In this document: piece after piece, positions 19,584 to 36,146 of the stretch | Position numbering within the stretch: position 1 is the stretch's first letter | Layout of the letters: each line of letters starts with the position of its first letter | Assembly: GCF_019024325.1 (NCBI RefSeq) | Contig: NZ_JAFNJS010000003.1 | Span: 248,001 to 312,000 of the forward strand | Direction: 5' to 3' | Source of the DNA: Falsiroseomonas tokyonensis | GTDB taxonomy: Bacteria; Pseudomonadota; Alphaproteobacteria; Acetobacterales; Acetobacteraceae | Length of the DNA: 64,000 nucleotides | Made by a program: the position numbers and the translations under genes | The notes under the pieces: model-generated | What the model saw: the letters and a program-made list of their open reading frames with translations, nothing else | Database searches by the model: none | Told to the model about the DNA's origin: nothing

Positions 19584-20426
19584 TCAGCGTGATTTCCAGC
19601 CGAGTGATGCCAAAATGTCATGGCTCGCCTGGATATCCGCATCCGGATCGGAGCCGGGCTGCAGCGCATCCGTGATGATCTCCAGCACCGTCTGCCCCTG
19701 GTAGCCGATCTCCCGCAGCGCAGCGCCGGCCGCCGCCGCATCCACGATGCCGGTGCCCAGCCGGGTGTGCTTGAAGACCTCATAGCCGCTATCGGAGATA
19801 TGGACGTTCTTGATGCGCTTGCCGAGCAGGCGGATGGCGGCGGCCACATCCTCCTTGATGAAGGCGCTGTTGCAGATGTCGAAGTTCAGCCCGACCTCCG
19901 GTCCGATTTCCTCGGCGACGGAAAGCATGTCCTGCGCGGAGGGCAGGTAGGTGAAGGGCACGTTCTCCAGGATGATCTCGACGCCCGAGCCCTTGGCGAA
20001 ATCCAGCAGCTCCCGCATCCCCTCGATGAACCAGGCGCGCATCCAGGCGACGGGCGGGTCGATCAGCGAATTCACCGGGCCGGGAATGGCGCAGACATAG
20101 GGGCAGCCCCAATCGGCGGCGAGGTCGATGGCCTCCCGATATCGGTCCAGCGTGTAGCGCCGCATCTTCGCGCAGACGCTGTTCGGGTTGTTGTCCAACA
20201 GCGGATAGCAGAAGGAGGTGATGGCGGAGCCACTGTCGGCGAGCCACGCCTTGTATTCGCGGCGCTTCGCGGGCGTGAGTTCCGAGGGCCAGCAATGCGG
20301 CGGGAAGATCATCATCTCGAAGGCGCGATAGCCCTGGCGGTGCAGGTGCTGCATCGCGCCGAGCCCGTCATGCGAATACAGGAAGGGAAAGGTCGAGACG
20401 GCAACCGGCAGCGCGGCCATGGGCAT
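19584..20426 (-). CDS. TIM-barrel sugar isomerase/epimerase-like protein
   Basis: This 280-residue protein belongs to the xylose-isomerase-like TIM barrel (AP-endonuclease 2) family. Supporting segments are VAVSTFPFLYSHDGL at the start, VEIILENVPF (strand with the metal-binding glutamate), VGLNFDICNSAF (metal aspartate) and KNVHISDSG (metal histidine). Such enzymes isomerise or epimerise sugars or keto sugars, or act on inositol derivatives. It ends the operon that begins with the solute-binding protein, four bases after the SDR stop. The exact reaction cannot be deduced. Confidence 0.8.
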   Translation of the reverse strand: MPMAALPVAVSTFPFLYSHDGLGAMQHLHRQGYRAFEMMIFPPHCWPSELTPAKRREYKAWLADSGSAITSFCYPLLDNNPNSVCAKMRRYTLDRYREAIDLAADWGCPYVCAIPGPVNSLIDPPVAWMRAWFIEGMRELLDFAKGSGVEIILENVPFTYLPSAQDMLSVAEEIGPEVGLNFDICNSAFIKEDVAAAIRLLGKRIKNVHISDSGYEVFKHTRLGTGIVDAAAAGAALREIGYQGQTVLEIITDALQPGSDPDADIQASHDILASLGWKSR

Positions 20427-20430
20427 CCTC

Positions 20431-21156
20431 CTACAGCGTGTGTTCGAGGCGGGTATTGACGATGAGCTCGGCGATGGTGGCGGTATCCGGCAGCCGCAGC
20501 AGCAGCGCGACGATTTCCGCGACGGTGGCGGGCGAGAGCCGCGTGGTGGAGATGCCGGGCAGGCCGGCCAGCAATTCCGTATCGATGGCGCCGGGGCAGA
20601 GCGCGGTGACGCGCAGCCCGTCTTCCCAACCCGCGAACTTCGCCGCCTGGCTGAGCGCGACGAGGGCCTGCTTGGTCATGGCATAGCCGATGGAGACGCT
20701 GGCATCGCGGATGCGCTTGCCGTCGGTGGAGGCAATGTTCACCACGCGCCCATGCCCCGCCGCGCGGAGGTGCGGGAGTGCGCGGCGTGTGGCCCGAAAA
20801 GGCGCCTTCACATTGACGGTCCAGAGCTCGTCGAGCTCCGCCTCGCCACCCTCGTCCCAGGTGACGCGGCGCAGGATGCCGGCATTGTTGATGAGGCCGT
20901 CGAGCCGCCCGTGCCGCGCCACGGCGGCATCGATCCAGCCTTCGGCGCTTTCGGGATTCATCGCGTCGTAGCGATGCGCGCTGATGCGCTCCTCACCCAG
21001 TCCGAGCCGCTTCGCCGCCGAGGGATCGCGCAGGCCGAGCGCCAGGGTGTAGCCCTCCGCATGCAGCCGCCGCGCGATGGCGGCGCCGAGGCCGCGCGAG
21101 GCGCCGGAAAGGGCGATGACGCGACCGGTGGCGGGCAGCAGCTCCGCATCGCGCAT
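20431..21156 (-). CDS. Short-chain dehydrogenase/reductase (classical)
   Basis: This 241-residue SDR has the NAD(P)-binding motif SGASRGLGAAIA near residue 18, NNAGIL near 90, the catalytic serine in NIASTDGK near 141, and the canonical YAMTK motif with active tyrosine and lysine. It therefore should be an active oxidoreductase, likely for a hydroxy acid or polyol. It lies two bases downstream of a second SDR in the same operon. No substrate is evident. Confidence 0.88.
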   Translation of the reverse strand: MRDAELLPATGRVIALSGASRGLGAAIARRLHAEGYTLALGLRDPSAAKRLGLGEERISAHRYDAMNPESAEGWIDAAVARHGRLDGLINNAGILRRVTWDEGGEAELDELWTVNVKAPFRATRRALPHLRAAGHGRVVNIASTDGKRIRDASVSIGYAMTKQALVALSQAAKFAGWEDGLRVTALCPGAIDTELLAGLPGISTTRLSPATVAEIVALLLRLPDTATIAELIVNTRLEHTL

Positions 21157-21158
21157 GG

Positions 21159-21941
21159 TCAGAACAGGCCCTGATAGACGCCACCGTCATTGACGATGTT
21201 CTGGGCGGTCATGAAGCCCGCCTGCGCGCTGCAGAGATAGGCAACCAGATCGCCGCATTCGGACGGGTCCGCGAAGCGCCCGGCGGGGCAGCCGGCGATG
21301 CGATCCTCCACCATCGCCTCATAGGTCGTGCCGCGGCGTGCGGCATGGCCGTGCAGGTTCGTGCGCAGCGCGTCCGTGTCGAAAAGGCCCGGGCAGACGG
21401 TGTTCACCGTGACATTGTGCGGGATGAGCTCCCGCGCGATCGAGCCGATGGCGCCCGAGAGCGCGACGCGCGCCGCATGCGAATGCGCGAAGCCGATCTG
21501 CGGAAACTTGATGAAGCTGACGGAGATGCTGACCACGCGGCCAAACTTGCGCTCGCACATGCCCGGCGTGGTACGGCGGATCAGCTCCATCGAGGAATGG
21601 AAATGCACATCCCACCAATAGAGCCACTCCGCGCGATCCCATTCCCGGAAGTTGCCGGGCACCTGGCGGACGCCGGGATTGCAGACCAGAATGTCCGGCG
21701 CCGGGCAGGCGGCGAGGATCGCGTCGCGGCCTTCCTCGGTGTTCACATCCGCCGCGACGATCTGCACCGCCACGCCGGTCTCGGCGCGCAGCCTTGCGGC
21801 GGCTTCCTCCAGCGCCTCCGCACCGCGCGCCACGATGGTGAGGTTGGCGCCTTCCTTGGCGAGCGAGCGCGCGCAGGCCTCGCCCAAGCCGCGGCTGCCG
21901 CCGCAGACCAGCGCGTGGCGACCCTTGATACCGAGATCCAT
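21159..21941 (-). CDS. SDR-family protein with altered catalytic motif
   Basis: This protein of about 260 residues starts MDLGIKGRHALVCGGSRGLG. The dinucleotide-binding motif GGSRGLGEA is intact, and the C-terminus keeps DGGVYQGL. The catalytic region is unusual: where most SDRs have YxxxK it reads GFAHSHAARVAL, so the tyrosine is replaced by serine (with a histidine just before it) and the lysine by arginine. A subgroup of SDRs with SNGAR-like motifs exists, so this may be a functional variant. The ATG at 21941 lies one base from the end of the DapA-like gene; the longer frame to 21983 overlaps that gene. Confidence 0.82.
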   Translation of the reverse strand: MDLGIKGRHALVCGGSRGLGEACARSLAKEGANLTIVARGAEALEEAAARLRAETGVAVQIVAADVNTEEGRDAILAACPAPDILVCNPGVRQVPGNFREWDRAEWLYWWDVHFHSSMELIRRTTPGMCERKFGRVVSISVSFIKFPQIGFAHSHAARVALSGAIGSIARELIPHNVTVNTVCPGLFDTDALRTNLHGHAARRGTTYEAMVEDRIAGCPAGRFADPSECGDLVAYLCSAQAGFMTAQNIVNDGGVYQGLF

Positions 21942-21942
21942 G

Positions 21943-22838
21943 TCAGAGCAGCCCCAGTTCCTGCAGCCCGCTGCGCAGCCCATCCAGCGGCGCGCCGGTG
22001 AGCGGCCGCAGCGGCGGGCGCGGCGTGCCGCCGCCCGGAAAACCCATCATGTCCATCGCCGCCTTGGTCGCCGGATACAGCGTGCGGCCGCCGCTGACGA
22101 AAAGATCCGTCAGCCTGCGCCCCATCTCCTGCAGCTCCGCCGCGTCGTCACGCCCATCGCGCGCCGCGTAGTAGAGGTCCAGGCAGCCGGTCCAGACATT
22201 AGGGAAGCAATCGACCGTACCATCCGCGCCCAGCGCAACGGCCGGCACGCCGAAGACGGAGGAGGGGCCGCAGAAGACGCGCAGCCGATCCTTCACCGCC
22301 AGTAGCGTGCCGTAGAAATTGTTCCAGTCGCCGGAAGATTCCTTGATGGCGACGATCTTCTCCAGATCAGCCAAACGATCCGCCAGCGCGGGCGAAATCG
22401 CGTTCACCGCATTGCCGGGAATGTTGTAAGCGATGATCGGCAGCTCGACGGCCTCCGAGACCGCCTTGTAATGGGCAAAGATCTCGTCGTCGGTCAGCTT
22501 CACGAAATAGGGCGGCAGCACCAGCACGCCATCGGCGCCGGCCTCCTTCGCCTTGGCGGCCAGCGCGATGGTATCGGCCTCGCCGACGCAGCCCGTGCCG
22601 ACGATGACGGTGCCGCGGCCAGCGGTCGCCTTTACCGCCTCATGATAGAGTGCAGCGCGTTCCTGCATGTTCAGCGCCCAGAATTCACCGGTGCAGCCGC
22701 AGGCGACCACGCCGGTGGCACCGGCATCCAACATGCGCGTGACATTCGCGGCGAAGCCGGCGCTATCGATGCGGCCCTGGCTGTCGAAGGGCGTGGTCAG
22801 CGCCGGCATCGGCCCCGACCAGTCGACATCGTCGCGGT

Positions 22839-22842
<4 letters not shown>
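21943..22842 (-). CDS. DapA-family (class I) aldolase/dehydratase
   Basis: This 299-residue TIM-barrel protein belongs to the dihydrodipicolinate synthase/N-acetylneuraminate lyase family. The keto-acid-binding motif is GCTGEF (near 50, variant of GTTGE), the active tyrosine is in YNIPGN (near 139), and the Schiff-base lysine is in AIKESSGD (near 167). Being in a catabolic operon with an ABC importer, it is more likely a sugar-acid dehydratase/aldolase or an imino-acid deaminase than a lysine-biosynthesis enzyme. It overlaps the ATPase gene by four bases. Confidence 0.88.
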
Positions 22843-23911
<1,069 letters not shown>

Positions 23912-23915
<4 letters not shown>

Positions 23916-24730
23916 CCCTTCACCCCGCCCGCGCCGAAGCCGCGTGTCAGGTATTTTTGCAGAAAGGCGAAGATGATGATGAGCGGCACACTCATCATGA
24001 CGGAGGCAGCCATCAGCAGGGACCATTCGATGTTGAAGGCGCTGACCAGCATGCTCATCACCCCGGTGGTGAGCGGCCGCGCCTCATCCGTGTTCACCAG
24101 CACCAGCGCGTAGAGATACTCGTTCCAGGACAGGATGAAGGTGAAGAGACAGGTGGAGATGATGCCCGGCAGCGCCTGCGGCAGGATGACGTCGACAAAA
24201 GCCTCCATCCGCGTCGCGCCATCCACCAGCGCCGCCGATTCCAGGTCGTCCGGAATGCCTTGCATGAAGCTGCGCAGCAGCCACAGCGCATAGGGCAGGG
24301 CGAAGCTCGTATAGGCAATCACCAGGCTCAGCAGCGAATTGGCGATGCCGAGCCAGACCATCAGCAGATACAGCGGCAGGATCAGTACGACGGAGGGCAG
24401 CAGATAGGTGAAGAGCACCAGCTGCGCCAGCCTTTCGCGGCCGGGATAGCGGAAGCGCACCAGGCTATGCGCGCCGAGCGTCGCGACAGCCACCACAAGC
24501 ACCGTGGTGGAGAAGGACAGCACCAGCGAGTTTCGCATATAGGTGAGGAAGGGCGTCTCCCACAGCAGGCGCGCGTAATGCTCGAAGGTGATCTGCTCCG
24601 GCCAGAATGTGGGCGGCATGCGGAACAGCTCGAACTGCGGCTTGATGGAGGTCAGCACCATCCAGAGCAGCGGAAAAGCGGTGACCAGCACGATGGTCCA
24701 GGCCATCAGGTTGAAAAGTACGCGCCTCAC
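23912..24730 (-). CDS. ABC transporter permease, MalG/UgpE type
   Basis: This 272-residue membrane protein has six hydrophobic helices and the coupling EAA-loop, here DDLESAALVDGATRMEAFVD. The start codon is GTG, overlapping the upstream permease stop (GTGA). It is the second permease of the importer, pairing with the gene directly upstream. Family and role are clear; the substrate is not. Confidence 0.92.
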
Positions 24731-25623
24731 TTGGCGGCATCCTGCTTCGCCTGCCGCAGGTACAGCAGCATGAAGACCAGCATGACGAACATCATGGCGA
24801 CAGCCACCGCGGTGGCGCGGCCCATCGCATCCATGCCGAAGGCTTCCTTGTAGACCATCAGCGGAAGCGTCTGCGTCGCGATCAGCGGGCCGCCGCCGGT
24901 CATCAGGTAGATCAGGTCGAATTCCTTGAAGTCCCAGATGGCGCGCAGCAGCACCACCACCAACAGCACATCCTTCAGCTGCGGCAGCGTCACATCCCAG
25001 AAGCGCCCCCAGGCGCCGGCGCCATCGATCGTCGCCGCCTCATACAGATTGTCTGGAATGGTCTGCAGCCGAGCCAGCACAGCGATGACGACGAAGGGGA
25101 AGTATTTCCAGGCACCCACCAGCACGATGCTGACCATGGCGTTGGGCATGGAGCCCAGCCAGTCCAGCGGCATGTTCAGCAGGCCCGCCCAGATCATCAG
25201 GTGGTTCAGGATGCCGTAGAGATCGTTGAACAGCCAACGCCAGACCAGCACGGCGACGACGGTGGAGACGAAATAGGGAAACAGGATCAGGCTGCGCGCC
25301 AGGGATCGGAAGATGATGGCCTGGTGCAGCATCAGCGCAGCCGCGATGCCCAGCACCACCTGCAACGTCAGCGTGCAGACCGTCCAGATCAGCGTATTGG
25401 CCAGCGAATGCCAGAACTCGCCACCCGCCAGCAGCTCCGCGTAATTGGATAGGCCGACGAAGTTGCCCTGCAGCGTCGGCGTGTAGATCGAGAACAGGCT
25501 GAGATAGATGGCCGATACAAGCGGATAGACGATGACGGCGCAGAAGATCAGCACGCTGGGGGCGATCAGCATCACCCCCAGCCAGGCATCACGCCGGTCG
25601 AGCGGATTCGTGGCAGGCTTCAC
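24727..25623 (-). CDS. ABC transporter permease, MalF/UgpA type
   Basis: This 298-residue membrane protein has six helices and the EAA-loop DNLYEAATIDGAGAWGRFWD. It starts eight bases after the solute-binding protein and overlaps the second permease by four bases. The gene order binding protein, two permeases and ATPase is the standard CUT1 arrangement. Confidence 0.92.
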   Translation of the reverse strand: MKPATNPLDRRDAWLGVMLIAPSVLIFCAVIVYPLVSAIYLSLFSIYTPTLQGNFVGLSNYAELLAGGEFWHSLANTLIWTVCTLTLQVVLGIAAALMLHQAIIFRSLARSLILFPYFVSTVVAVLVWRWLFNDLYGILNHLMIWAGLLNMPLDWLGSMPNAMVSIVLVGAWKYFPFVVIAVLARLQTIPDNLYEAATIDGAGAWGRFWDVTLPQLKDVLLVVVLLRAIWDFKEFDLIYLMTGGGPLIATQTLPLMVYKEAFGMDAMGRATAVAVAMMFVMLVFMLLYLRQAKQDAAK

Positions 25624-25631
25624 GCGCAGGA

Positions 25632-26951
25632 TCAGCCGCGCATGATCTGTTCGAGCCGCTGCGCGGTGGTGGAGACCACCTGCGCCACCGGCTCGTTGTT
25701 GACCACGTAGCGCTGCACCGCTTCCGCCAGCACATGGCTCGCGATGATGCGGCCGGCCGAGGTGTTCGGCTTGTGCGAGGTGCTCTCCCAGCCCAGGTTG
25801 TGGCCGGCGGCGGCGGCGGTGGACATGCGATCCACCTCCGCGCGGTACTTCTGGATCAGCGCATTCTCCTGATAGGCGGGCATGGCGCTGATGGTCTTCA
25901 GCACCGGCAGCACATGGCCGGGTGCGGCATGCAGCTGGCGGATATAGCCATCGGCGCGGAACAGATGCGCCGCGAAGCGCTTCGCCAGCGCCATGTTCGG
26001 CGCGACCTTCGGGATCATCACGCTGGGGAAGTCGTTGAAGGTCCAGTGCGGCACGCTGGCGGAGATGGTGGGATATTCGGCGCAGGTGATGCTGTCCGCG
26101 ATGCGCGGATTCTGCGCCGCCACATTTGCCAGCACGCGGCCCGTGTAGATGCCGGTGGCCGTGGCGCCGGCGACGAAGCCGGTCAGGCTCTCTCCCCAGG
26201 AGTAATTGGTGGCGCCGGGCGGGCAGAACTCCCGCATCGACTTGTAGAACTCCAGCGCATTGCGGAAGGCGTCGCTATCCACCGCCACCTGCAGGTCAGG
26301 CGTGAAGATCTGCCCGCCGGCGCCGTGCACGAAACAGATGAAGATCAGGCTGGTCATCGAATTGCGCGCATAGGGCAGGGGCGCGCCATAGATGCCGCCG
26401 CGCTGCGTGCGCCGGCACAGGTCGCGCAGCTGGTCCCAGGTGCGGGGCGCAGCATCGACGCCCGCGGCACGCATCAGATCCGTGCGCAGCCACATCATGT
26501 TGGCCGCAGAATTGCCGATGCCGGTGCCGGCATATTGGCCCTGCGTGATCTCATAGATCCGATTGGCACCGTCATAGTAGTTCTCGGTGCCGACGGCCGA
26601 GATCACGTCGTTCATCGGCTCCAGCAGGCCATTCTGCCAATAGGTCGCCACCGCGAAATGCGGCAGATGCGTCACCACCGAAGGAACCTGGCCAGAGGCG
26701 AAGGCCGCGGCCATCTGCGCCGGATAGCCCTCGTCGGACGTTGCCTCGAAGACCACGCGCACGCCGGGATTGGCTTCCTCGAAGCTGCGGATCTGGAAAT
26801 TGTAGGCCTCGCGCTGCGCGGGCGCGGTCTGTGGCGACCACCAGCGCAGCGTAGTCTGCTGCGCTTCCGCGGGCCGCACGCCGGCGGCGGCGAGCCCCGC
26901 GACGCCGAGCCCGAGGCTGCGGCGGGTGAATCCCTTGCTGGTGCCCATCAT
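25632..26951 (-). CDS. ABC transporter solute-binding protein, family 1
   Basis: This 439-residue periplasmic protein has an N-terminal twin-arginine-like signal (GFTRRSLGLGVAGLAAAG, cleavage near AEAQ) and a family 1 binding fold, with TTLRWWSPQTAPAQREAYNF at the mature start and PSVVTHLPHFAVATYW in the first lobe. It captures the substrate for the CUT1 importer. It is the first gene of the minus-strand operon and is divergent from iclR; the 17-bp palindrome at 27102-27118 lies between them. The start could be the first or second methionine (26951 or 26948). Confidence 0.9.
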   Translation of the reverse strand: MMGTSKGFTRRSLGLGVAGLAAAGVRPAEAQQTTLRWWSPQTAPAQREAYNFQIRSFEEANPGVRVVFEATSDEGYPAQMAAAFASGQVPSVVTHLPHFAVATYWQNGLLEPMNDVISAVGTENYYDGANRIYEITQGQYAGTGIGNSAANMMWLRTDLMRAAGVDAAPRTWDQLRDLCRRTQRGGIYGAPLPYARNSMTSLIFICFVHGAGGQIFTPDLQVAVDSDAFRNALEFYKSMREFCPPGATNYSWGESLTGFVAGATATGIYTGRVLANVAAQNPRIADSITCAEYPTISASVPHWTFNDFPSVMIPKVAPNMALAKRFAAHLFRADGYIRQLHAAPGHVLPVLKTISAMPAYQENALIQKYRAEVDRMSTAAAAGHNLGWESTSHKPNTSAGRIIASHVLAEAVQRYVVNNEPVAQVVSTTAQRLEQIMRG

Positions 26952-27143: not shown

Positions 27144-27947
27144 ATGGACGATGCCATCCCCCAGAATTTCACCCAGCCTCGCCCCGGCGAGGATCGGGAG
27201 ATCGTGCAATCCGTGCTGCGCGCGCTCGATGTGCTGCGCAGCTTCGACCGGCAGACGCCGCGGCAGACGTTGTCGCAGGTGGCGGAACGCACGGGCCTTT
27301 CGCGCGCGACCGCACGGCGCTTCCTGCTGACCTTCACCCATGCCGGCTACATGGAGCAGGATGGCGGCCGCTTCCGCCCGACGGCGAAGCTGCTGGAGCT
27401 CGGCCATTCCGCCGTCGCCTCGCTGGGGTTGTGGGACCTGGCGCGGCCGGTGATGGCGGATCTGTCCGCGCGGCTTGGCGAAGCGGCTTTCGCTGCCGTG
27501 CTCGATGGGCAGGATGCGCTCTATGTCGCGCATGCGCCCTCGCCGGGGCGTGTGGTGGCGGTGGGTATCGCGGTGGGGCGGCGGCTGCCGGCGTATTGCA
27601 CCTCCGTCGGCCGCGTGCTCCTGGCGGGTCTGCCCGATGCGGCGCTGGCGCAGGCGATGGCGGCGCTGAAGCCCACTGCCTTCACCGCGAACACGGTGAC
27701 GTCGAAGGCGAAGCTGCGCGAAATCGTGGAGCAGACGCGGCGCGATGGATACGCGATCGTGGATGAGGAGCTGGAGGTCGGGCTGCGCTCCGTCTCCGTG
27801 CCGCTGCGCGCGCCGGGCGGCGCGGTGCTCGCCGCGCTGAATGTGTGTGGCCCTTCCTCGCGCGTGACGGCGGAGGCGCTGCACAGCCGCTTCCTGCCGG
27901 AGATTCTGCAGGCCGCGGACCGCATCAACCGCTCGCTGCGCGACTGA
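27144..27947 (+). CDS. IclR-family transcriptional regulator
   Basis: This 267-residue regulator has a winged helix (about 22-80: VLRALDVLRSFDRQTPRQTL, then AERTGLSRATARRFLLTF) and the IclR ligand-binding domain (about 90-265: RPVMADLSARLGE, LPAYCTSVGRVLLAGL, YAIVDEELEVGLRSVSVPLR). Relatives of this type control aromatic acid or sugar acid catabolism and may activate or repress. It is divergent from the importer operon and shares a palindrome with the AcoX/GcvP operon at 34.7 kb. Its 3' end overlaps the end of the DadA-like gene by 23 bases, tail to tail. Confidence 0.92.
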   Translation: MDDAIPQNFTQPRPGEDREIVQSVLRALDVLRSFDRQTPRQTLSQVAERTGLSRATARRFLLTFTHAGYMEQDGGRFRPTAKLLELGHSAVASLGLWDLARPVMADLSARLGEAAFAAVLDGQDALYVAHAPSPGRVVAVGIAVGRRLPAYCTSVGRVLLAGLPDAALAQAMAALKPTAFTANTVTSKAKLREIVEQTRRDGYAIVDEELEVGLRSVSVPLRAPGGAVLAALNVCGPSSRVTAEALHSRFLPEILQAADRINRSLRD

Positions 27948-29067
27948 AGCGCGCCGGCGTGAAGCGATCCGTGGCGAAACCGGGATCGCGCCCCAGCAGC
28001 AGCGCCGCGGCCATGGAAGCCACCAGCGGGCCGAGCGTATAGCCGGCATCGCCAGGCACCGCGACGTGCACGCGCGGCTCCTGCGGCAGCGGGCCGAGGA
28101 TGCATTGCCCATCGGCCGTGGTGTTCACGCCGGCCCAACTGCGCAGCAGCCGCAACCCGCCGATTGGCGGCACGATATGCTGGGCGAGGGACAGGTTGCC
28201 GACGAGGGACGCCGCCTCCACCGTCGGGAAATCCTGCGGGCCTGCAAAGCGCGCAGGCCAGCCGCCGCCGATCACCACCTGGCCGGCGGCGAGCTGCTTC
28301 AGCGTGATCATGCGCTCCGCATGCTGCACCAGGTGCAGGATCAGCGGCGCCGTGGCCTCCGTGATGTTCATGTGCAGCGGTTCCGCCACCGTGGGCAGAG
28401 GCGCGCCCAGCGAGCCGGCCAGCGCGCCGCTGCCGGCGCCTGCGGCGAGTACAACACGGCCGGCGCGGATCACGCTGCCATCGGTGCCGTGCAGCAGCAG
28501 CGCCTCCCGCACCGCCTCAATGCGGGCGATGCGATGGCCGATGTGATACGGCACGCCGCGCGCCTGCAGGTCCCGGCGCAGCGCCTCGTTCGCCAGCAGC
28601 GGGTTCAACTTGCCTTCCTCGGCACAAAGCTCCGCGCCATGCACGGCATCGCCGAGATAGGGCGCGACGCGCCGCAGCGCCGCGCGGTCCAGCATCTCAA
28701 CCTGCAAGCCGAGCGCCTGTTCGCGCCGGCATTTTTGCGCCAGGAACTCGTAATGCTCGGCGGTCTCACAGACCATCAGGCCGCCGGATTGGCGCAGCTC
28801 GATATCCGCGCCGAGATCCTCGGCCAGCAGGCGCCAGCGGCGCGCGGCTTCGGGGTAGAGCGGCAGCGAGGCTTCGAGATTCGGCACCAGCTCCGGATAC
28901 ATCCGCAGGAAGCGCGACTGCATCTGCACATGCAGGCTGCCTGCATTGGCGGTGGTGCCGGCGTGGTGGCCGGAATCCAGCAGCGTGACATCGCGGCCCG
29001 CCATCGCCAGCTCTCGCGCCAGGCACATGCCCACAATGCCGCCGCCGATGACCGCGATATCGGTCAT
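27925..29067 (-). CDS. DadA/HcnC-type FAD-dependent amine or amino-acid dehydrogenase
   Basis: This flavoprotein of about 380 residues starts MTDIAVIGGGIVGMCLAREL, the Rossmann dinucleotide-binding fold, and belongs to the D-amino-acid oxidase (DAO) family. The C-terminal part (SWAGVNTTADGQCILGPLPQ, then VAVPGDAGYTLGPLVASMAA) is the usual second FAD contact. Members include D-amino-acid dehydrogenase, sarcosine oxidase, HcnC, opine oxidase subunit B and hydroxyproline dehydrogenase. The ATG overlaps the stop of the fused oxidoreductase gene (ATGA), so the two gene products likely form one complex. Substrate is not determinable from sequence alone. Confidence 0.87.
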   Translation of the reverse strand: MTDIAVIGGGIVGMCLARELAMAGRDVTLLDSGHHAGTTANAGSLHVQMQSRFLRMYPELVPNLEASLPLYPEAARRWRLLAEDLGADIELRQSGGLMVCETAEHYEFLAQKCRREQALGLQVEMLDRAALRRVAPYLGDAVHGAELCAEEGKLNPLLANEALRRDLQARGVPYHIGHRIARIEAVREALLLHGTDGSVIRAGRVVLAAGAGSGALAGSLGAPLPTVAEPLHMNITEATAPLILHLVQHAERMITLKQLAAGQVVIGGGWPARFAGPQDFPTVEAASLVGNLSLAQHIVPPIGGLRLLRSWAGVNTTADGQCILGPLPQEPRVHVAVPGDAGYTLGPLVASMAAALLLGRDPGFATDRFTPARFSRAASG

Positions 29068-30665
29068 GACCCGAGAAGATCCGAAATGCGCACAGGGCGC
29101 GCCGGCACGCGCGGTGCAAAACTGTCGTCCACGCCCATGCGTGCGGCGAGCAGCGGCGCGCAGTAGCGGCCCTGGCAGCGGCCCATGCCGCAGCGCGTGC
29201 GGCGCTTCACCTCGCCGATATCGCCGGGGCCGGCGGCGATGGCGGCGTCGATCTGTGCCAGCGTTACCTCCTCGCAGCGGCAGACCAGCGTCTCGGGCTG
29301 AGCAAGCACCAGGCCAGGGAAGGGGGCGCGAAACACCTGCCACAGCGCGTCCTGGAAGGCGCGGTGCCGCACCAGGCTTGCGCGCACCGGCGCATCTGAG
29401 GGCGCGCTGCGGCCCAGTGCGCGCGCCGCTGCGAGGCCGGCGATCTCGCCTTCCGCCAGTGCCGCCGGCGCGCCGCCGAGACCACAGCCATCGCCCACGG
29501 CGTAGAGGCCCTCCATGCTTGTCTGCATCTGCGCGTCGCGCTGCGGCCGCAGCAGCCCGTCCTGCATGGCATGGGTGGCGCCGATGGCGCGCAGCAGCGC
29601 AGTCTCGGGCTGGAAGCCATAGCCGCAGAGAACGGCATCCACCGTGTGGCGCGTGCCATCATCCAGCTCGGCCAGCAGCGCGCCATCTGCGGTGCGCGTG
29701 ACGCTGCGCAACAGCCGCCCACGCCGCAGCGGAATGCCATGGCGGCGCAGCGTCACGAGCATGCCGAGACCCTTGGCTGCGAGCTTTGGCGCGGCCCGCA
29801 GCATGCGCGCCAGCGCCAAAGGCCGCAGGCCGGACGAGGCTTCCGCCACGGCCACCACCTGCGCGCCACCCGCGGCGAGTTCCAGCGCCACCTGCAGGTT
29901 CAGCGGCCCATTGCCGGCCACCAGCACGCGGCGGCCAGGCAGCGTGCGGTAGCTGCGCCAGAGGGTCTGTGCGGCGCCCGTGGTCATCACGCCCGGCAGG
30001 GTCCACCCGGGGAAGGGCAGGGCGCGTTCCTGCGCGCCGGTCGCGAGCACGGCGGCGCGGGGCCGCAGCCGCAGCGTCTGGCCGTGTCGCGTCGCCAGGA
30101 AGAGCAGCGGCGCGAAGGCGCCCCAGACTTCGGTGCCGTCGAGGATGCGCACGCCAGCCTCGCGGCAGGCGGCGAGCAGGGCGGCACCCTCCGACTGCTG
30201 CGCATCCATCGGCGCGAGGCCGGGCATCGCCTGCTTGTAGTACTGGCCGCCCGGGATGCCGCGCTCATCCACCAGCAGCACCTCCACACCTGCGCGCCGT
30301 GCGGCGAGCGCGGCGGCGAGGCCACCGGCGCCACCGCCCACCACCAGCAGCTCCGGCGTCTCCTCCGGCAGATCCTCGAGCGCCAGCGGCCGTGTGCCCG
30401 TCGTGCGCTGTGGCAGCGGTGCCGGATGCGGTTGGCGCATCACCTGTTGGCCAGACACGGCTTTCGTCATGCAGGCGCGCGTATTGGGCACGCCGTCCAC
30501 GACCATCACGCAATCCTGGCAGGCGCCCATGCCACAGTAGAGGCCGCGTCCTCCCGGCCCGCGGCGCGTGTCGCGCAGGTCCAGCACGCCGGCCTCGGTC
30601 AGCGCGGCGGCCAGGCTCTGGCCGGGCCGCACCGCAATGGCGCGGCCCTCGAAGTCGAGCGTCAC
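29064..30665 (-). CDS. Fused 2Fe-2S / FAD / BFD oxidoreductase (HcnA-HcnB or OoxA type)
   Basis: This 533-residue protein joins three modules. Residues about 1-85 form a Fer2_4 [2Fe-2S] domain with CGMGACQDC and a fourth cysteine in RACMTK. Residues about 105-430 form a two-dinucleotide oxidoreductase with VVGGGAGGLAAALAARRAG and VLVAGNGPLNLQVALEL, then LYAVGDGCGLGG. Residues about 455-505 form a BFD-like [2Fe-2S] domain with CRCEEV and CGMGRCQGRYC. In HCN synthase, opine oxidase and D-hydroxyproline dehydrogenase these modules occur as separate or fused subunits that pass electrons from a DAO-type subunit. Here it overlaps gcvPB upstream and the DadA-like gene downstream. Confidence 0.87.
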   Translation of the reverse strand: MTLDFEGRAIAVRPGQSLAAALTEAGVLDLRDTRRGPGGRGLYCGMGACQDCVMVVDGVPNTRACMTKAVSGQQVMRQPHPAPLPQRTTGTRPLALEDLPEETPELLVVGGGAGGLAAALAARRAGVEVLLVDERGIPGGQYYKQAMPGLAPMDAQQSEGAALLAACREAGVRILDGTEVWGAFAPLLFLATRHGQTLRLRPRAAVLATGAQERALPFPGWTLPGVMTTGAAQTLWRSYRTLPGRRVLVAGNGPLNLQVALELAAGGAQVVAVAEASSGLRPLALARMLRAAPKLAAKGLGMLVTLRRHGIPLRRGRLLRSVTRTADGALLAELDDGTRHTVDAVLCGYGFQPETALLRAIGATHAMQDGLLRPQRDAQMQTSMEGLYAVGDGCGLGGAPAALAEGEIAGLAAARALGRSAPSDAPVRASLVRHRAFQDALWQVFRAPFPGLVLAQPETLVCRCEEVTLAQIDAAIAAGPGDIGEVKRRTRCGMGRCQGRYCAPLLAARMGVDDSFAPRVPARPVRISDLLGS

Positions 30666-32203
30666 TCGGCGGCGCGCGCGCGGGTTGCGGCGTGCTTGCG
30701 CTGATAGGCGCGCCAGGTGGTGGCCCAGCGCGCTGGGTCCTCCGGCGCCTCCGAATCCACGCGGCCGATCGGCGCGTTATGGGGCGCGGTGCGCACCAGC
30801 TCGGGATCCTGCCGCGCCTCGTCGCACACCTTGGCCAGCACCTCGCACCAGAGGTCGATATCCTCCTTCGACCACAGCTCGCCCGCTTCGGGCGTGAAGG
30901 GTTCCGGCACCACCCAGGGCTCGTGCGAAAGCCAGGGCGCGTCGATGCCGTAATCGGTCATGCGGTTGCCGACCTCGACCACGCCGAGCCCCGTCTCCTC
31001 CTTCAGCGGTCCCAGCCCGTAGCGCGTCATCTCCATCCGCCAGGTCTTGGCTTCCGGGTTCGACCGCGCGACGCCGGGAATCGCGAGCAGCTTCTTCTCC
31101 ATGTAGTTGTTGGCGAGCACGGCGAGGTCGGCCGCTTCCTTGATGCCATCCGCGCCCATCGCCCGCGCCCAGGCATAGGCGCGCATGACGATGTGCAGGT
31201 TGCCGAGAAACTCCCGCACCTTGCCGACCGATTGCGGCCTGTCGTCATCGAGACCGTAGCTGCCGTCAGAATTCTTCACGACCAGCGGCTTCGGCAGGAA
31301 GGGAGCCAGCTCGGCAGAACAGCCATAGGCGCCGACGGCCGGCCCACCGCCGCCCTTCGGCCCGCCAAAGGTCTTGTGCAGCATGAACATGCAGGCGTCG
31401 AAGCCGAGTTCGCGCGCGCGGATGCGGCCCATCACGCCGTTGAAGTTCGCGTGGTCGTAGAAGGCCAGGCCACCGGCCTGCTTCACCAGTGCGGTCCATT
31501 CGCGGATCTGCGGGTTGTAGACGCCCATATCGTCGGGGTTGTTGATCATCAGCGCCGCGGTGCGGGGGGACAGCGCCGCCTTCAAGGCGTCGATGCTGGG
31601 ATAGCCGTTCTCCTCAAGCATCAGCGTCACCACCTTGAAGCCGGCGGTCGCCGCGGTGGCGGGGTTGCAGGGATGCGCCTGGATCGAGGTGATGATCTCG
31701 TTGCGCTGCTCCAGCTCCCCCTTCGCCGCGAAATAGCCGCGGGTGACGCAGGTGTGCGTGTACGCAGCGTCGGCGCCACCGGCGGCCTGGAAGACGAACT
31801 GGTCCATGCCGGACAGTTCGCGCAGGATGAGATCGAAGTTGTGGACGATCTCCAGCAGCCCCTGGATGGAGGCGGCCGGCTGCAGCGGATGGATCTCCGC
31901 CATCTGCGGCCGCAGGCCCAGCGCCTCGCTGAGGCGTGGATTGTACTTCATGGTGCAGGTGCCGAAGAGGCTGACGCCCATCATGCCCAGCACCTGCTGC
32001 GACAGATGCAGGTAGTGGCGCAGCACGTCGTGCTCCGTCATCTCCGGCAGCGCCGGTTTTGTGCGGCGGCGCATGCCGGCGGGGATCAGCGCGGCGGCGT
32101 CCGTCTCCGGCTGCGGAAAGACCACGCCGCGGCGTCCGGCGACGCCCATTTCCATGACGACCGGCTCGTTCCAGCGCGCCTGGTGGATCAGTTTTGCGGT
32201 CAT
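30662..32203 (-). CDS. gcvPB: Glycine dehydrogenase (decarboxylating) subunit 2
   Basis: This PLP enzyme subunit of about 513 residues carries the cofactor lysine in the motif MLHKTFGGPKGGGGP. Together with GcvPA it decarboxylates glycine and passes the aminomethyl group to the lipoyl arm of H-protein. It starts MTAKLIHQARWNEPVVMEMG at the ATG at 32203, overlapping the gcvPA stop (ATGA); the frame to 32425 runs into gcvPA and is not used. Length and motifs match the two-subunit form. No gcvH, gcvT or lpd gene is in the window, so H-protein must come from elsewhere if the classical reaction takes place. Confidence 0.93.
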   Translation of the reverse strand: MTAKLIHQARWNEPVVMEMGVAGRRGVVFPQPETDAAALIPAGMRRRTKPALPEMTEHDVLRHYLHLSQQVLGMMGVSLFGTCTMKYNPRLSEALGLRPQMAEIHPLQPAASIQGLLEIVHNFDLILRELSGMDQFVFQAAGGADAAYTHTCVTRGYFAAKGELEQRNEIITSIQAHPCNPATAATAGFKVVTLMLEENGYPSIDALKAALSPRTAALMINNPDDMGVYNPQIREWTALVKQAGGLAFYDHANFNGVMGRIRARELGFDACMFMLHKTFGGPKGGGGPAVGAYGCSAELAPFLPKPLVVKNSDGSYGLDDDRPQSVGKVREFLGNLHIVMRAYAWARAMGADGIKEAADLAVLANNYMEKKLLAIPGVARSNPEAKTWRMEMTRYGLGPLKEETGLGVVEVGNRMTDYGIDAPWLSHEPWVVPEPFTPEAGELWSKEDIDLWCEVLAKVCDEARQDPELVRTAPHNAPIGRVDSEAPEDPARWATTWRAYQRKHAATRARAAE

Positions 32204-33597
32204 CGCAGGATCTCCTCCAGCGTCGTGGCCAGTCGCGCGATGTCCTCCGGCGCGTGCACTTCCGTCACGGCGAAGAGCGCGCACTGCCCGAGAGCCGGGA
32301 TGTCGGCCGACAGGTCCTTGCCACCAAAGATGCCGCGTTTCAGCAGCGCCGCATTCACCTGCGCCACGCTGCGGCCGGTCGCGGAGAAGTCGACGACGAA
32401 TTCGCGGAAGAAGCCGGACTTCCACCGAACGGACACACCCGGAATCGCATCCAGCCGCCGCGCTGCATCATGCGACCGCGCCAGCACCAGCTCGCCAAGC
32501 TCGGCAAAACCTTCCGGGCCCATCAGCGACATGTAGACGGCGTTGGCGATGGCGGTGAGGTAGACGGAATTGCCCGTCCAGTCCTTGCCCTGCTCCCGCA
32601 TGCCATAGCTGGACTGATGCGAGAGGCTGAGGGCAAAACCGTGCTCGCCGGGATTGCGCGTGGTGGTGATGGAGATGTTCAGCGTCGGATATTCGCGCGC
32701 ATAGCGTTCCTCGTCGCGGGAGGCGATGAAGCCACCCGCGCCGCCACCTGCGCTCATATGCGCGCCCAGTGTCTGCGTGGTGCCGACGACGATATCCGCG
32801 CCATAGTCGGGCGGTGGCGCCAGCACGCCGAGGCTGATCGGGTCGACTCCCACGATCACCTCCGCGCCCGCGGCATGCGCGAGCCGCGCGATCTCCGCGC
32901 CCTGCGTCTCGATGATGCCGAGGAAGCCGGGATTCTCGAAATACACGGCGGTGACGCCGTCATTCAGTTTTGTGCGCAGGTCGTCCAGATCGATCAGCCC
33001 ATCCGCCGCGCGCTGCGCCACCAGCTCCACCGCGATGCGGTTCGGCATGCCCTCCGGCTCGCAGTACTGGCGGATCACCGCCAGCCGCTCCGGGTCCATC
33101 CATTCCGGCACCAGCACGCGCCGCCGCCCGTTCAGCCGCGAGGCCAGCCGCACCGCATTGCCCGCCGCACAGCCCCAGGAATAGACGGGCAGGCCGACGA
33201 AGTCGCAGGCCACCAGCTCGCCGAGCTGGGAGGCGAATTCGAACCAGGCCTGGTTGCGGCCATGGTCCGACATCGCCGTGCCCCAGACGGATGTCAAAAA
33301 CTCCGAACGCCCCGCGATCTCGTCGCAGATCGCCGGCACATGGTGCTGCCAGATGCCGGCGCCGAGGAAGCTGAGGTTTTCCTCGCAGCTCGTGTTCTTG
33401 CGCAGCAGTGACAGCATGTGCCGCCGCAGCTCGGGCTCGGAGCGCAGGGCCGGCGGCAGCGCGAAGTCGTGCGCCGTGCGGTGCTCGGCCGGAATCTGCT
33501 CGAACAGCGCCTCGATGGAGGGCGCGCCGATCTCGCGCAGCATGGCCTGCTTGATGGCGGGCACCGAATTGGCCATCCAGGGATGGGCTATGGTCAT
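32200..33597 (-). CDS. gcvPA: Glycine dehydrogenase (decarboxylating) subunit 1
   Basis: This 465-residue subunit has the typical start (HPWMANSVPAIKQAMLREIG), followed by ENLSFLGAGIWQHHVPAICD, SEFLTSVWGTAMSDHGRNQ and TQTLGAHMSAGGGAGGF. It lacks the PLP lysine, as expected for subunit 1. It is followed by gcvPB with a four-base overlap. The gene lies 12 bases downstream of the AcoX-like gene. Being in a regulated catabolic operon rather than with gcvTH suggests a dedicated copy. Confidence 0.93.
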   Translation of the reverse strand: MTIAHPWMANSVPAIKQAMLREIGAPSIEALFEQIPAEHRTAHDFALPPALRSEPELRRHMLSLLRKNTSCEENLSFLGAGIWQHHVPAICDEIAGRSEFLTSVWGTAMSDHGRNQAWFEFASQLGELVACDFVGLPVYSWGCAAGNAVRLASRLNGRRRVLVPEWMDPERLAVIRQYCEPEGMPNRIAVELVAQRAADGLIDLDDLRTKLNDGVTAVYFENPGFLGIIETQGAEIARLAHAAGAEVIVGVDPISLGVLAPPPDYGADIVVGTTQTLGAHMSAGGGAGGFIASRDEERYAREYPTLNISITTTRNPGEHGFALSLSHQSSYGMREQGKDWTGNSVYLTAIANAVYMSLMGPEGFAELGELVLARSHDAARRLDAIPGVSVRWKSGFFREFVVDFSATGRSVAQVNAALLKRGIFGGKDLSADIPALGQCALFAVTEVHAPEDIARLATTLEEILR

Positions 33598-33609
33598 GCG
33601 GGCTCCTTC

Positions 33610-34710
33610 TCAGGCGGCGATGCGCAGCATGGCGCTGCGGTCGGGGGCGGTGCGGATGGCGATGTAGCCGGCGAGCTCCGCATCCAGCGCGGCCTCCCCG
33701 GTATCCACATGCAGGCAGGCGGGATCGAGCGCGGCGAGCTTCTGCTGCCCCGCGACCACCACCAGGTTCTCGCGACCCAGCCGGCGCAATACCGCGGGCG
33801 AGAATTGCTGGTTGCCGCGGCCGAGCAGGAATCCCTGGCCGCCGGTGACGCCGAGGATGGCGGTGGCCGGCGCCTGGTCCAGCAGCCGCAGGATCTGCGC
33901 CTCCGTCACATCCGCCGCCAGCAGCCTTCCATCGAGGGCCACGTCCACGCCCATCAGCGTGCCGGCAAAACCGAGCGCGCGCTTGATGCGCCGCATGGTG
34001 GTGCCGCAGCCCAGCAGATAGAGGCGGCCCGGCTGCATCTCCGTCACCATGCGCCGGGCCAGCGCTTCCAGCGCCGCCTCGTCCGGAATGGCGGCACCGG
34101 ACTTGCCGGCCTGCATCAGCGCGCGTTCCTGTGGCACCCGCGCGACGCCATGCAGCCGCGCGCTGACGCGGCCCTGGCGCAGCGCGTCTTCGTCGAGGTC
34201 CATCACCTCGGCCTCCTGCGTCGCGGCGCGGCCCTCCAGGAAGGCGGCGGCAACGCGGCCGGCCGCGGCAGGGTTCTGGGCAAAGACGGCGGAGTGCATC
34301 TTCACCCCCGTCGGGATGCCGAGGATCGGCAGCTGCGTGCCGACCTCGGCCAGAACGTCCCGCGCCGTGCCATCGCCACCGGCGAAGATGAGCAGGTCGA
34401 CCCCGCCGCCCAGCATGGCGCGTGCGGCTGCGCGGGTCGCGGCTGCGCCGGTGGCCTCGCCTGTCTCCACAACCTCGCAGGCCAGCCCCGCCGCGGCGCA
34501 GGCCTGTTCGCCCATCGAACCGGGCGCAGCCAGCACGGCCGGGCCCAGGCGCCGCAACTCGGCCAGCGCCCGCGCCGCGCGCGCGCCGGAGACCGGCTCC
34601 GCCCCCAATTCGCGCGCCCGCGCCAGGATGGCCGGCCCATCGGTGCCCTTCAGCCCGACCCGTCCCCCCATGCCGGCGATCGGATTGACGATCACGCCCA
34701 GGCGCTGCAC
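33610..34710 (-). CDS. ATP-NAD kinase-fold protein, AcoX-like
   Basis: This protein of about 366 residues begins VQRLGVIVNPIAGMGGRVGL and contains DLLIFAGGDGTARDV, the GGDGT motif of NAD kinases, with GIPTGVKMHSAVFA after it. It belongs to the COG3199/AcoX group, found beside acetoin-cleaving and other lipoamide-linked systems and without a settled function. I start at the GTG at 34710, because GGGGGAG lies about five bases upstream. The longer frame to 34746 would begin inside the 17-bp operator. It is the first gene of the operon with gcvPA, gcvPB and the two flavoproteins. A supply of NADP or a regulatory role are both possible. Confidence 0.82.
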   Translation of the reverse strand: MQRLGVIVNPIAGMGGRVGLKGTDGPAILARARELGAEPVSGARAARALAELRRLGPAVLAAPGSMGEQACAAAGLACEVVETGEATGAAATRAAARAMLGGGVDLLIFAGGDGTARDVLAEVGTQLPILGIPTGVKMHSAVFAQNPAAAGRVAAAFLEGRAATQEAEVMDLDEDALRQGRVSARLHGVARVPQERALMQAGKSGAAIPDEAALEALARRMVTEMQPGRLYLLGCGTTMRRIKRALGFAGTLMGVDVALDGRLLAADVTEAQILRLLDQAPATAILGVTGGQGFLLGRGNQQFSPAVLRRLGRENLVVVAGQQKLAALDPACLHVDTGEAALDAELAGYIAIRTAPDRSAMLRIAA

Positions 34711-34943: not shown

Positions 34944-36146
34944 TCAGAGGGAGGAGGCGACCGCCGGGGCCAGGGCCGGATTCTTGCCCATCGGGTGGCC
35001 GGGGTTGCGGAAGCGCAGCTCCCCTTCCGGCGCGCCATCGGGCGGCGCCACGCCGAACAGCTCCATCCGGCTGGTGCAGGCCACGGCCACCACGCGGCGC
35101 GCCGCGGGCTCGGTCATCCAGCGGCGGGCGGCGCCCTCGAGCTCCAGGCGTTCGCGCAAGCCACGCCATTCGGCGCGGTCCACATCCTCCACGAACATGG
35201 CCAGCAGGCCGGGGCGGGTGCCGGTCAGGCGGCTTTCGGCCACCAGGGCGCAGCGGCGGGTCACGGCGGTGGCGATGGAATTCTCCCGCCCCGCCCGGGC
35301 GGCCATGACGAAGACGGAGCCATCGCCGGGGCCGGCGGTGACGGCCAGATGCGCCTCCTCGCCGAACTGGGCGCGCAGCTGGGCCGGCAGGCCCTGCACG
35401 CTGGCCTGGGCGCCGGCCAGCACCAGCGGGTCCAGCTTCAGCACGGCATCGGCGCTGGAATCCTGCCGCTTCTGGGCGGCCAGCAGACCGGCGATGCGGG
35501 CATGCAGCTCCGCCACCTGGGCGTCGGTCGCCATGCCGCCCGGCAGGGTCATCTTCAGCAGGTAGCGGCCCGGATGGGCGGCGAGCCAGGTCTGCAGTTC
35601 CGGATTCACCTTGTCGACCAGGGCGCACCAGTCGCCGCGGTGTACCTCCCGCCCTTCTTCGGCCGAGACGGATTCACAGACCACCTCGGCTTCCACGCCG
35701 TCGCGGCTGATCAGCAGGTCGAAGGGCGCTTCCTCGGCCAGGCCGGCGAACGTCACCTCGAAGCCGCGGCTGCGGTGCAGGGCGGCGGTCCGCAGCAGGT
35801 GGAACAGCGGCATCAGCGTGGCCTCGCCGGTCAGGCCGGCGGCGATCTCCGCGCGCAGCCGGGCGCGTTGCGGCACGGGCAGGCTTCCGGCCAGCTGCAC
35901 CGCCTCTCGCGCGAAGGCCAAAGCGAGGCGTTCGGCGGGGGTGGCGCGGGCCAGGGCTTTGGGGTCCGCCAGCCGGGCCAGCACCAGCTCCAGCGCATGG
36001 CGCTGCTGCGCGGCGCGGCCGGAGAGGGAGGGCGCGGCCACCCGCTGGCTGATGTCGTTCAGGCGTTTCGCCCAGAGGCGGGCGCCGCAAAGGTTGCGAA
36101 AACGGTCGAGATCGGCCGGTTCCGGCCGATGGTCGGCGAAGGGCAT
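34944..36146 (-). CDS. Conserved hypothetical protein, possible nuclease-like fold
   Basis: This 400-residue protein has no recognised family. It is rich in alanine, leucine and arginine, with no signal peptide or membrane helix, so it is likely cytoplasmic. Around residues 125-165 the sequence FEVTFAGLAEEAPFDLLISR followed by VEAEVVCESVSAEEGREVHR resembles the strand-turn-strand core of PD-(D/E)xK enzymes, with an aspartate, a glutamate and then ECxS in place of ExK, so activity is doubtful. It stands alone between the REP-like element and aroC. The start at 36146 (MPFADHRPEP) is the first in frame. Confidence 0.65.
   Translation of the reverse strand: MPFADHRPEPADLDRFRNLCGARLWAKRLNDISQRVAAPSLSGRAAQQRHALELVLARLADPKALARATPAERLALAFAREAVQLAGSLPVPQRARLRAEIAAGLTGEATLMPLFHLLRTAALHRSRGFEVTFAGLAEEAPFDLLISRDGVEAEVVCESVSAEEGREVHRGDWCALVDKVNPELQTWLAAHPGRYLLKMTLPGGMATDAQVAELHARIAGLLAAQKRQDSSADAVLKLDPLVLAGAQASVQGLPAQLRAQFGEEAHLAVTAGPGDGSVFVMAARAGRENSIATAVTRRCALVAESRLTGTRPGLLAMFVEDVDRAEWRGLRERLELEGAARRWMTEPAARRVVAVACTSRMELFGVAPPDGAPEGELRFRNPGHPMGKNPALAPAVASSL

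Follow-up and report, generated by a model that had tools for sequence, protein, structure and literature searches.

A near-constant AcoX-PA-PB gene core in which relatives of glycine decarboxylase have variable oxidase partners

The minus strand of a 64,000-nucleotide stretch of the Falsiroseomonas tokyonensis genome (assembly GCF_019024325.1, contig NZ_JAFNJS010000003.1, positions 248,001 to 312,000; the whole stretch is called the window here) encodes an AcoX-like protein, relatives of the split P-protein (glycine decarboxylase) subunits GcvPA and GcvPB (called PA and PB), a fused oxidoreductase (FES) and a DAO-type flavoprotein (DAO). We found that AcoX, PA and PB are a near-constant three-gene core, or triad, for which the FES/DAO pair is a variable partner. 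The gene module is real and conserved, and its P-protein relative is probably misnamed by annotation. We consider it likely that the triad lies at the heart of a catabolic module that moves horizontally and that PA and PB form a distinct P-protein-like heterodimer that does not act as GcvP.

33610-34710, minus strand: AcoX-like protein with a NAD-kinase/diacylglycerol kinase-type fold and a GGDGT motif; GTG start; core gene 1
32200-33597, minus strand: GcvPA-like subunit, divergent, without YTPYQ and with REQHIRREKATSNI largely replaced; core gene 2
30662-32203, minus strand: GcvPB-like pyridoxal phosphate (PLP) subunit, K277 kept; core gene 3
29064-30665, minus strand: FES, a fused 2Fe-2S/FAD/BFD oxidoreductase (PF13510, PF07992, PF04324); variable partner
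27925-29067, minus strand: DAO-type flavoprotein (PF01266, E 3.4e-49); variable partner

A near-constant core with variable partners

All five genes lie where a preliminary description of this DNA had placed them. In the order acoX, gcvPA, gcvPB, FES, DAO they are separated by +12, -4, -4 and -4 bp, and by this spacing they look like one tight operon. We compared 88 loci, comprising the window, 7 plasmid loci and the best 80 of 271 relatives from a PB-profile scan of genome contigs; because only these 80 entered the set, distant family members are under-sampled. Partners were tallied as tblastn matches to 38 query proteins within flanks of up to ~10-12 kb per side, shorter at contig ends, and these tallies are lower bounds that are silent on genes for which there was no query protein. 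AcoX adjoins PA/PB in 83 of the 88 loci, and four of the five exceptions are contig ends. The two lie on the same strand with a gap of <400 bp in 67 loci, on opposite strands in 14 and on the same strand with a larger gap in 2. FES was matched in 35 loci, DAO in 33 and both in 28, while any DAO-type query found a match in 52. Other partners were short-chain dehydrogenases/reductases (SDRs; 62 loci), dihydrodipicolinate synthase (DHDPS)-family proteins (47), IclR regulators (41), class III aminotransferases (17), succinate-semialdehyde dehydrogenase (SSADH)-like proteins (14) and AMP-ligases (12).

The preliminary description had treated the five genes as one system, to be judged by their conservation in relatives. 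We rejected them as an indivisible set because FES and DAO vary, though the set recurs in congeners. The four nearest relatives (L043-L046, from Falsiroseomonas, Roseomonas and Acetobacteraceae), whose PB is 92-93% identical to that of the window, have DAO directly after PB and the downstream gene order of the window; the DNA examined of these four showed no FES next to the triad. A FES search of 14 genomes of the same genus found contiguous PB-FES-DAO in at least three (L006-L008), and a fourth congener, L021, has PB-FES and then a contig end. This search took the best FES place per genome only, and its short loci stop before PA and AcoX. Plasmid loci of Rhodococcus, Gemmobacter and Sphingomonas (L037, L039 and L040) carry the triad with no FES/DAO match, and have APC permease, SDR, AMP-ligase, primary-amine oxidase, luciferase-like monooxygenase (LLM) or zinc-dependent alcohol dehydrogenase (Zn-ADH) genes instead. 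Primary-amine oxidase genes stand at L037, L159 and L122. Importers and oxidases around the triad differ between loci, and because the FES/DAO partners vary, the set of five amounts to a local arrangement built on the three core genes. The partner LLM, ADH, AMP-ligase, SDR, amine-oxidase and DHDPS proteins tried received no specific NCBIfam name.

The PA/PB family spans Pseudomonadota, Actinomycetota and Bacteroidota and includes one haloarchaeal plasmid. In a comparison of L040, L068, L098 and L072, genes flanking the triad are near-identical between sphingomonads (DUF1330 94%, Zn-ADH 89-92%) and an ADH is 89% identical in Aurantimonas, which points to recent horizontal spread.

The AcoX-like protein matches NAD_kinase (PF01513, E 2.1e-20) and NAD_kinase_C (PF20143, E 1.9e-10), and the GGDGT motif is present in both AcoX alignments. 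A search with its profile found no PDB sequence at E 0.01 or better; the best PDB matches of its AlphaFold model (mean confidence, pLDDT, 90.5) were diacylglycerol kinases, and weak (E ~1e-3, TM-score ~0.25). Among 385 genomes of the class, 24 match the AcoX profile, 9 strongly and 15 weakly. All 9 strong matches have PA or PB within short loci, one of them split over two contigs and one (G109/L188) paired with a canonical-type PA; the 15 weak ones have no PA/PB within 1.5 kb. Among 398 genomes of the phylum Pseudomonadota, 38 match. Twenty of these loci, selected non-randomly, were opened, and PA/PB occurs at two, in one case of the window's type and in the other of the type called II below; the other 18 gave no PA/PB match. 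A role for AcoX dedicated to PA/PB, true in the class (9/9 strong matches), fails in the phylum, and we rejected it: AcoX-like proteins are a larger family than the PA/PB-linked ones. A quick midpoint-rooted tree of 74 AcoX rows splits those linked to the window's type of PA/PB from unlinked ones with support of 94, leaving out three ungrouped rows.

Some AcoX contexts stand apart from the triad. At L227, L228, L230, L233, L236 and L240, six of the 18 opened phylum loci that gave no PA/PB match, an AcoX-like gene lies within a few kilobases of an aroC homologue, a context that is perhaps housekeeping. On a Peptoclostridium acidaminophilum plasmid (L155, 9031-11107) an AcoX-like gene overlaps the start of a gene for a class I/II-fold PLP enzyme. 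L188 (G109:C47, 6891-13019) holds a row of a dehydrogenase, an enzyme like 2-amino-3-ketobutyrate CoA ligase (KBL; match E 7e-101), AcoX and canonical-type gcvPA/gcvPB, with PB in two frames. Neither gcvT nor gcvH was found among the five L188 neighbour proteins scanned, and an order-level AcoX search of 4 genomes around L188 gave no second KBL/AcoX/canonical-gcvPA case.

Departure of PA and PB from the P-protein

Type I, the type found in the window, was represented by 84 PA and 88 PB sequences, which we compared with canonical P-proteins, namely split P-proteins and the fused GcvP of the window genome itself, counting a column as replaced when the canonical-invariant residue is present in at most 10% of type I rows. 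By this measure, 28 of 65 canonical-invariant columns are replaced in PA and 34 of 101 in PB. The PLP site itself is kept: K277 (the PLP lysine in HKTF), H177 and D250 are invariant in 88/88 type I PB, the last two being what we take to be the ring-stacking His and the pyridine Asp. The YTPYQ motif is lost from type I PA, with the first Tyr in 0/84 and the column of the second a gap in 84/84. In PMC7259800, the equivalent tyrosines of human GLDC, Y161 and Y164, are annotated as active site, and R373 and K376 are H-protein contacts predicted by docking. Mapping these residues onto the PA alignments by eye placed both contacts in the REQHIRREKATSNI segment, most columns of which, that of the R373 equivalent included, are replaced in type I PA. 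In type I PB, HxN before HKTF has become MxM (the His is Met in 87/88 and Gln in 1/88), and the His after HKTF (PHGG His, H283) has become Lys. Arg394 is new in PB, occurring in 88/88 type I, 8/8 type II/III and 0/7 canonical sequences, and Arg389 is likewise new.

In type II, from actinobacteria, PA-PB-AcoX is accompanied by an SDR; type III, from alphaproteobacteria, has PA-PB-AcoX. Neither type has the second Tyr or the REQHIRR-SNI sequence. A PB tree splits 15 type I, 7 type II and 1 type III rows from 6 canonical rows with support of 100/100; its root was not inferred, so descent of PA/PB from the P-protein is itself something we infer. All 24 host genomes sampled encode a second strong GcvP match (best PF02347 E <=1.1e-114, by score), and triad PA matches PF02347 far more weakly in the same genomes. 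The window genome encodes an ordinary GcvP, in a 1082-aa frame, together with GcvT and GcvH on another contig (C34). The gene tables of the seven annotated triad loci, though incomplete, list no gcvT or gcvH. Because canonical residues are replaced and each sampled host has another strong GcvP, we are fairly confident that PA/PB is not a glycine decarboxylase. Judged by its residues and tree position, it is a distinct family related to the P-protein, probably without the glycine/lipoyl-H-protein reaction.

Several observations weigh against a catabolic triad module with a non-GcvP enzyme. Both subunits exceed the NCBIfam equivalog cut-offs (PA, GcvPA 425 bits against 364; PB, GcvPB 500 bits against 441), and PA contains the Pfam GDC-P domain. 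The canonical comparison set is just six proteins. Among the predicted H-protein contacts, the R373 equivalent is the only one lost: the K376 equivalent is variable, with Lys in members such as L039, L040 and L064, and the adjacent Arg (PA 327) is retained in 84/84 type I PA. Residue loss is graded, since types II/III retain three of the positions at 8/8 each, namely the initial Tyr of YTPYQ, the Asn and the His of PHGG. The gcvPA paired with AcoX in L188 has 64/65 canonical residues, 18 of the 20 AcoX loci opened in the phylum gave no PA/PB, and in the fifth exception to adjacency, the archaeal L041 (a Natronosalvus plasmid), AcoX lies ~54 kb from PA/PB. Lastly, with copper amine oxidase, AMP-ligase, APC permease or LLM genes nearby at some loci, no single common substrate is dictated.

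On a Deinococcus plasmid (L123, 1556-6577), gcvPA-gcvPB precede genes for a MOSC protein and a class III aminotransferase. The residues of this pair are canonical (59/65 and 94/101), and no gcvT or gcvH is listed beside it.

The flavoprotein pair and the wider gene set

FES combines Fer2_4, Pyr_redox_2 and Fer2_BFD domains, and with the DAO domain of its partner this bears out the HcnABC/opine-oxidase-like make-up ascribed to the pair in the preliminary description. The best NCBIfam match of DAO is ThiO (E 1.8e-31), below its cut-off, and DAO falls below the cut-offs in all of the best 25 of 34 matched families. The closest PDB chains are 1y56_A for FES and, for DAO, glycine oxidases and then 1y56_B. 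By these matches, DAO is nearest to glycine/sarcosine-oxidase-type families. Among the best 40 of 405 plasmid records, the closest DAO relatives outside triad loci have 36-41% identity, and Agrobacterium/Rhizobium homologues, presumably of the opine-oxidase kind, have ~30%. We opened four non-triad plasmid DAO loci. Three (L243, L244, L246) have one 966-992 aa protein whose C-terminal part matches DAO; these look like FES-DAO fusions and adjoin amino-acid ABC transporter, DHDPS-family and dihydropyrimidinase genes. The fourth (Bradyrhizobium) has separate genes, next to a DHDPS-family gene. Many congeners have comparably long frames that match FES.

The gene set in the window is larger than five, extending beyond DAO as follows.

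27144-27947, plus strand: IclR-family regulator, convergent (PF01614, PF09339)
22839-26951, minus strand: sugar-type ABC transporter, with substrate-binding protein (25632-26951), permeases (24727-25623, 23912-24730) and ATPase (22839-23915)
21943-22842, minus strand: DHDPS-family lyase/aldolase (PF00701, E 1.1e-56)
21159-21983, minus strand: SDR, from domain search
20431-21156, minus strand: SDR, from domain search
19584-20426, minus strand: TIM-barrel isomerase-like protein, homologues of which are annotated 'sugar phosphate isomerase/epimerase' in L035 and L036
18741-19499, minus strand: GntR/PhnR-like regulator, from domain search

The ends of the IclR and DAO genes overlap by 23 bp. Homologues of the ABC transporter occur in the same order at L036, L038 and L043-L046. 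The order of both SDRs and the isomerase-like gene is kept in L043-L046, where the examined DNA ends near the expected position of the GntR/PhnR-like regulator. The window DHDPS-family protein matches dapA best in NCBIfam, below the cut-off. Just upstream of the operon, a 400-aa open reading frame (34944-36146, minus strand) had no Pfam match at E 0.001.

Candidate chemistry and known systems

The best reading of these sequences is that PA/PB is a P-protein heterodimer with a new function, a PLP enzyme that serves amine or amino-acid catabolism, works with interchangeable oxidases and probably degrades an amine other than glycine. In the IclR-linked catabolic setting of the window, a substrate would be imported by the ABC transporter and oxidized by DAO, with FES for electron transfer; SDR and DHDPS-family steps would belong to the same module, and PA/PB would act at a PLP step after import and oxidation by DAO/FES and SDR. 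An alpha-amino-beta-oxo compound (or alpha-aminoketone) would be made by the neighbouring SDR or flavoenzyme, and PA/PB would cleave its C-alpha to C-beta bond, with the new Arg394 (and Arg389) holding the substrate carboxylate at the active site and AcoX serving as a kinase-fold helper of the same ketone chemistry.

In fold-type I enzymes such as KBL, aspartate aminotransferase and serine hydroxymethyltransferase, the substrate carboxylate is bound at a spacing of ~125-135 residues after the PLP lysine. Arg394 sits 117 residues after the PLP lysine of PB, near enough to that spacing for a carboxylate role to be possible. Under Dunathan stereoelectronics, a PLP enzyme breaks the bond set out of plane; a carboxylate kept in plane would thus leave C-alpha to C-beta or C-alpha to H to break, and not C-alpha to COO-. 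Carbon-carbon cleavage is favoured because an SDR is matched in 62 of the 88 triad loci and in 1 of the 18 AcoX loci with no PA/PB (from other taxa, and shorter), and because KBL stands beside AcoX in L188. The helper role for AcoX is suggested by the AcoX relative encoded with acetoin cleavage. We offer the assignment of Arg394/Arg389 to the carboxylate, with C-alpha to C-beta cleavage, as a tentative proposal that may well prove wrong. Rather unlikely as it stands is the fuller account, an undescribed system in which a P-protein scaffold would have acquired an Arg that holds the carboxylate, given up lipoyl/H-protein use and been rebuilt as a PLP carbon-carbon lyase of alpha-amino-beta-oxo compounds or alpha-aminoketones. 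If true, this lyase would be the PLP counterpart of thiamine diphosphate-dependent acetoin cleavage, explaining why AcoX-family proteins stand beside both.

It is also possible, if doubtful, that PA/PB decarboxylates or oxidatively deaminates a non-glycine amino acid independently of H-protein, with DAO/FES handling the product. Kinship with the P-protein, the invariant H177, D250 and K277, and nearby amine-handling genes such as the primary-amine oxidases noted above are what such an enzyme would have; the new invariant Arg389/Arg394, however, suggest a carboxylate retained rather than lost, and there is no additional constant partner.

The preliminary description had GcvP consuming glycine, and in its fullest form this route has DAO/FES free glycine from an N-substituted glycine for cleavage by PA/PB with chromosomal GcvH, GcvT and Lpd. 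DAO does resemble glycine/sarcosine oxidases, GcvH, GcvT and GcvP are encoded elsewhere in the window genome, L188 sets KBL and AcoX beside canonical-type gcvPA-PB, and some members keep Lys at the K376 equivalent. Nevertheless, PA/PB of the window's type have other sequence in place of YTPYQ, most of REQHIRREKATSNI and the HxN/PHGG motifs, every one of the 24 sampled hosts has another strong GcvP, and the incomplete gene tables of the seven annotated loci list neither gcvT nor gcvH, making this route improbable. A pathway like that of D-hydroxyproline, with FES/DAO as the dehydrogenase, a DHDPS-family protein as the deaminase, a semialdehyde dehydrogenase, and PA/PB-AcoX late or accessory, draws on the DHDPS-family (47/88) and SSADH-like (14/88) genes and on an L121 SSADH-like protein scoring 703 bits in TIGR01780, and seems a poor prospect given that the window DHDPS protein best matches dapA and that the triad also occurs with no FES/DAO match at L037, L039 and L040.

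Triad PA/PB genes are currently annotated as glycine dehydrogenase, so pathway reconstructions may count them in the glycine cleavage system. If PA/PB is instead a repurposed P-protein heterodimer, the family would hold an uncharacterised PLP reaction across three bacterial phyla and a haloarchaeal plasmid, and its near-constant AcoX partner would be a handle on a kinase-fold family with no assigned role.

As the preliminary description had supposed, we found no described pathway with exactly this gene set in the literature searched. The split P-protein of Thermus thermophilus (1wyt) is alike in being a two-subunit PLP enzyme with the PLP Lys and the aligned His and Asp. In contrast to it, triad PA/PB has the active-site motif and most of the predicted H-protein segment replaced, carries the new R389/R394, and is partnered by AcoX rather than GcvT/H in genomes that, in 24/24 cases, have a second GcvP. 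FES and DAO share their domain architecture with HcnABC, opine oxidase (OoxAB) and PH1363-type enzymes; within the PH1363-type structure 1y56, chain A is the closest PDB relative of FES, while chain B ranks behind glycine oxidases for DAO. AcoX of acetoin catabolism is described as a predicted NAD kinase in PMC9676059, and the window protein is like it in having NAD-kinase-type domains. Unlike the acetoin setting, the annotated triad loci list no acetoin dehydrogenase (acoABC queries were not run at the other loci); L064 has a pyruvate-dehydrogenase-E1-type gene ~1.2 kb before AcoX. KBL, finally, would cleave the same kind of bond as that proposed for PA/PB, and in L188 AcoX and gcvPA/PB have a KBL-like gene as neighbour; PA/PB comes from a different PLP family, and the likeness would be one of proposed mechanism only.

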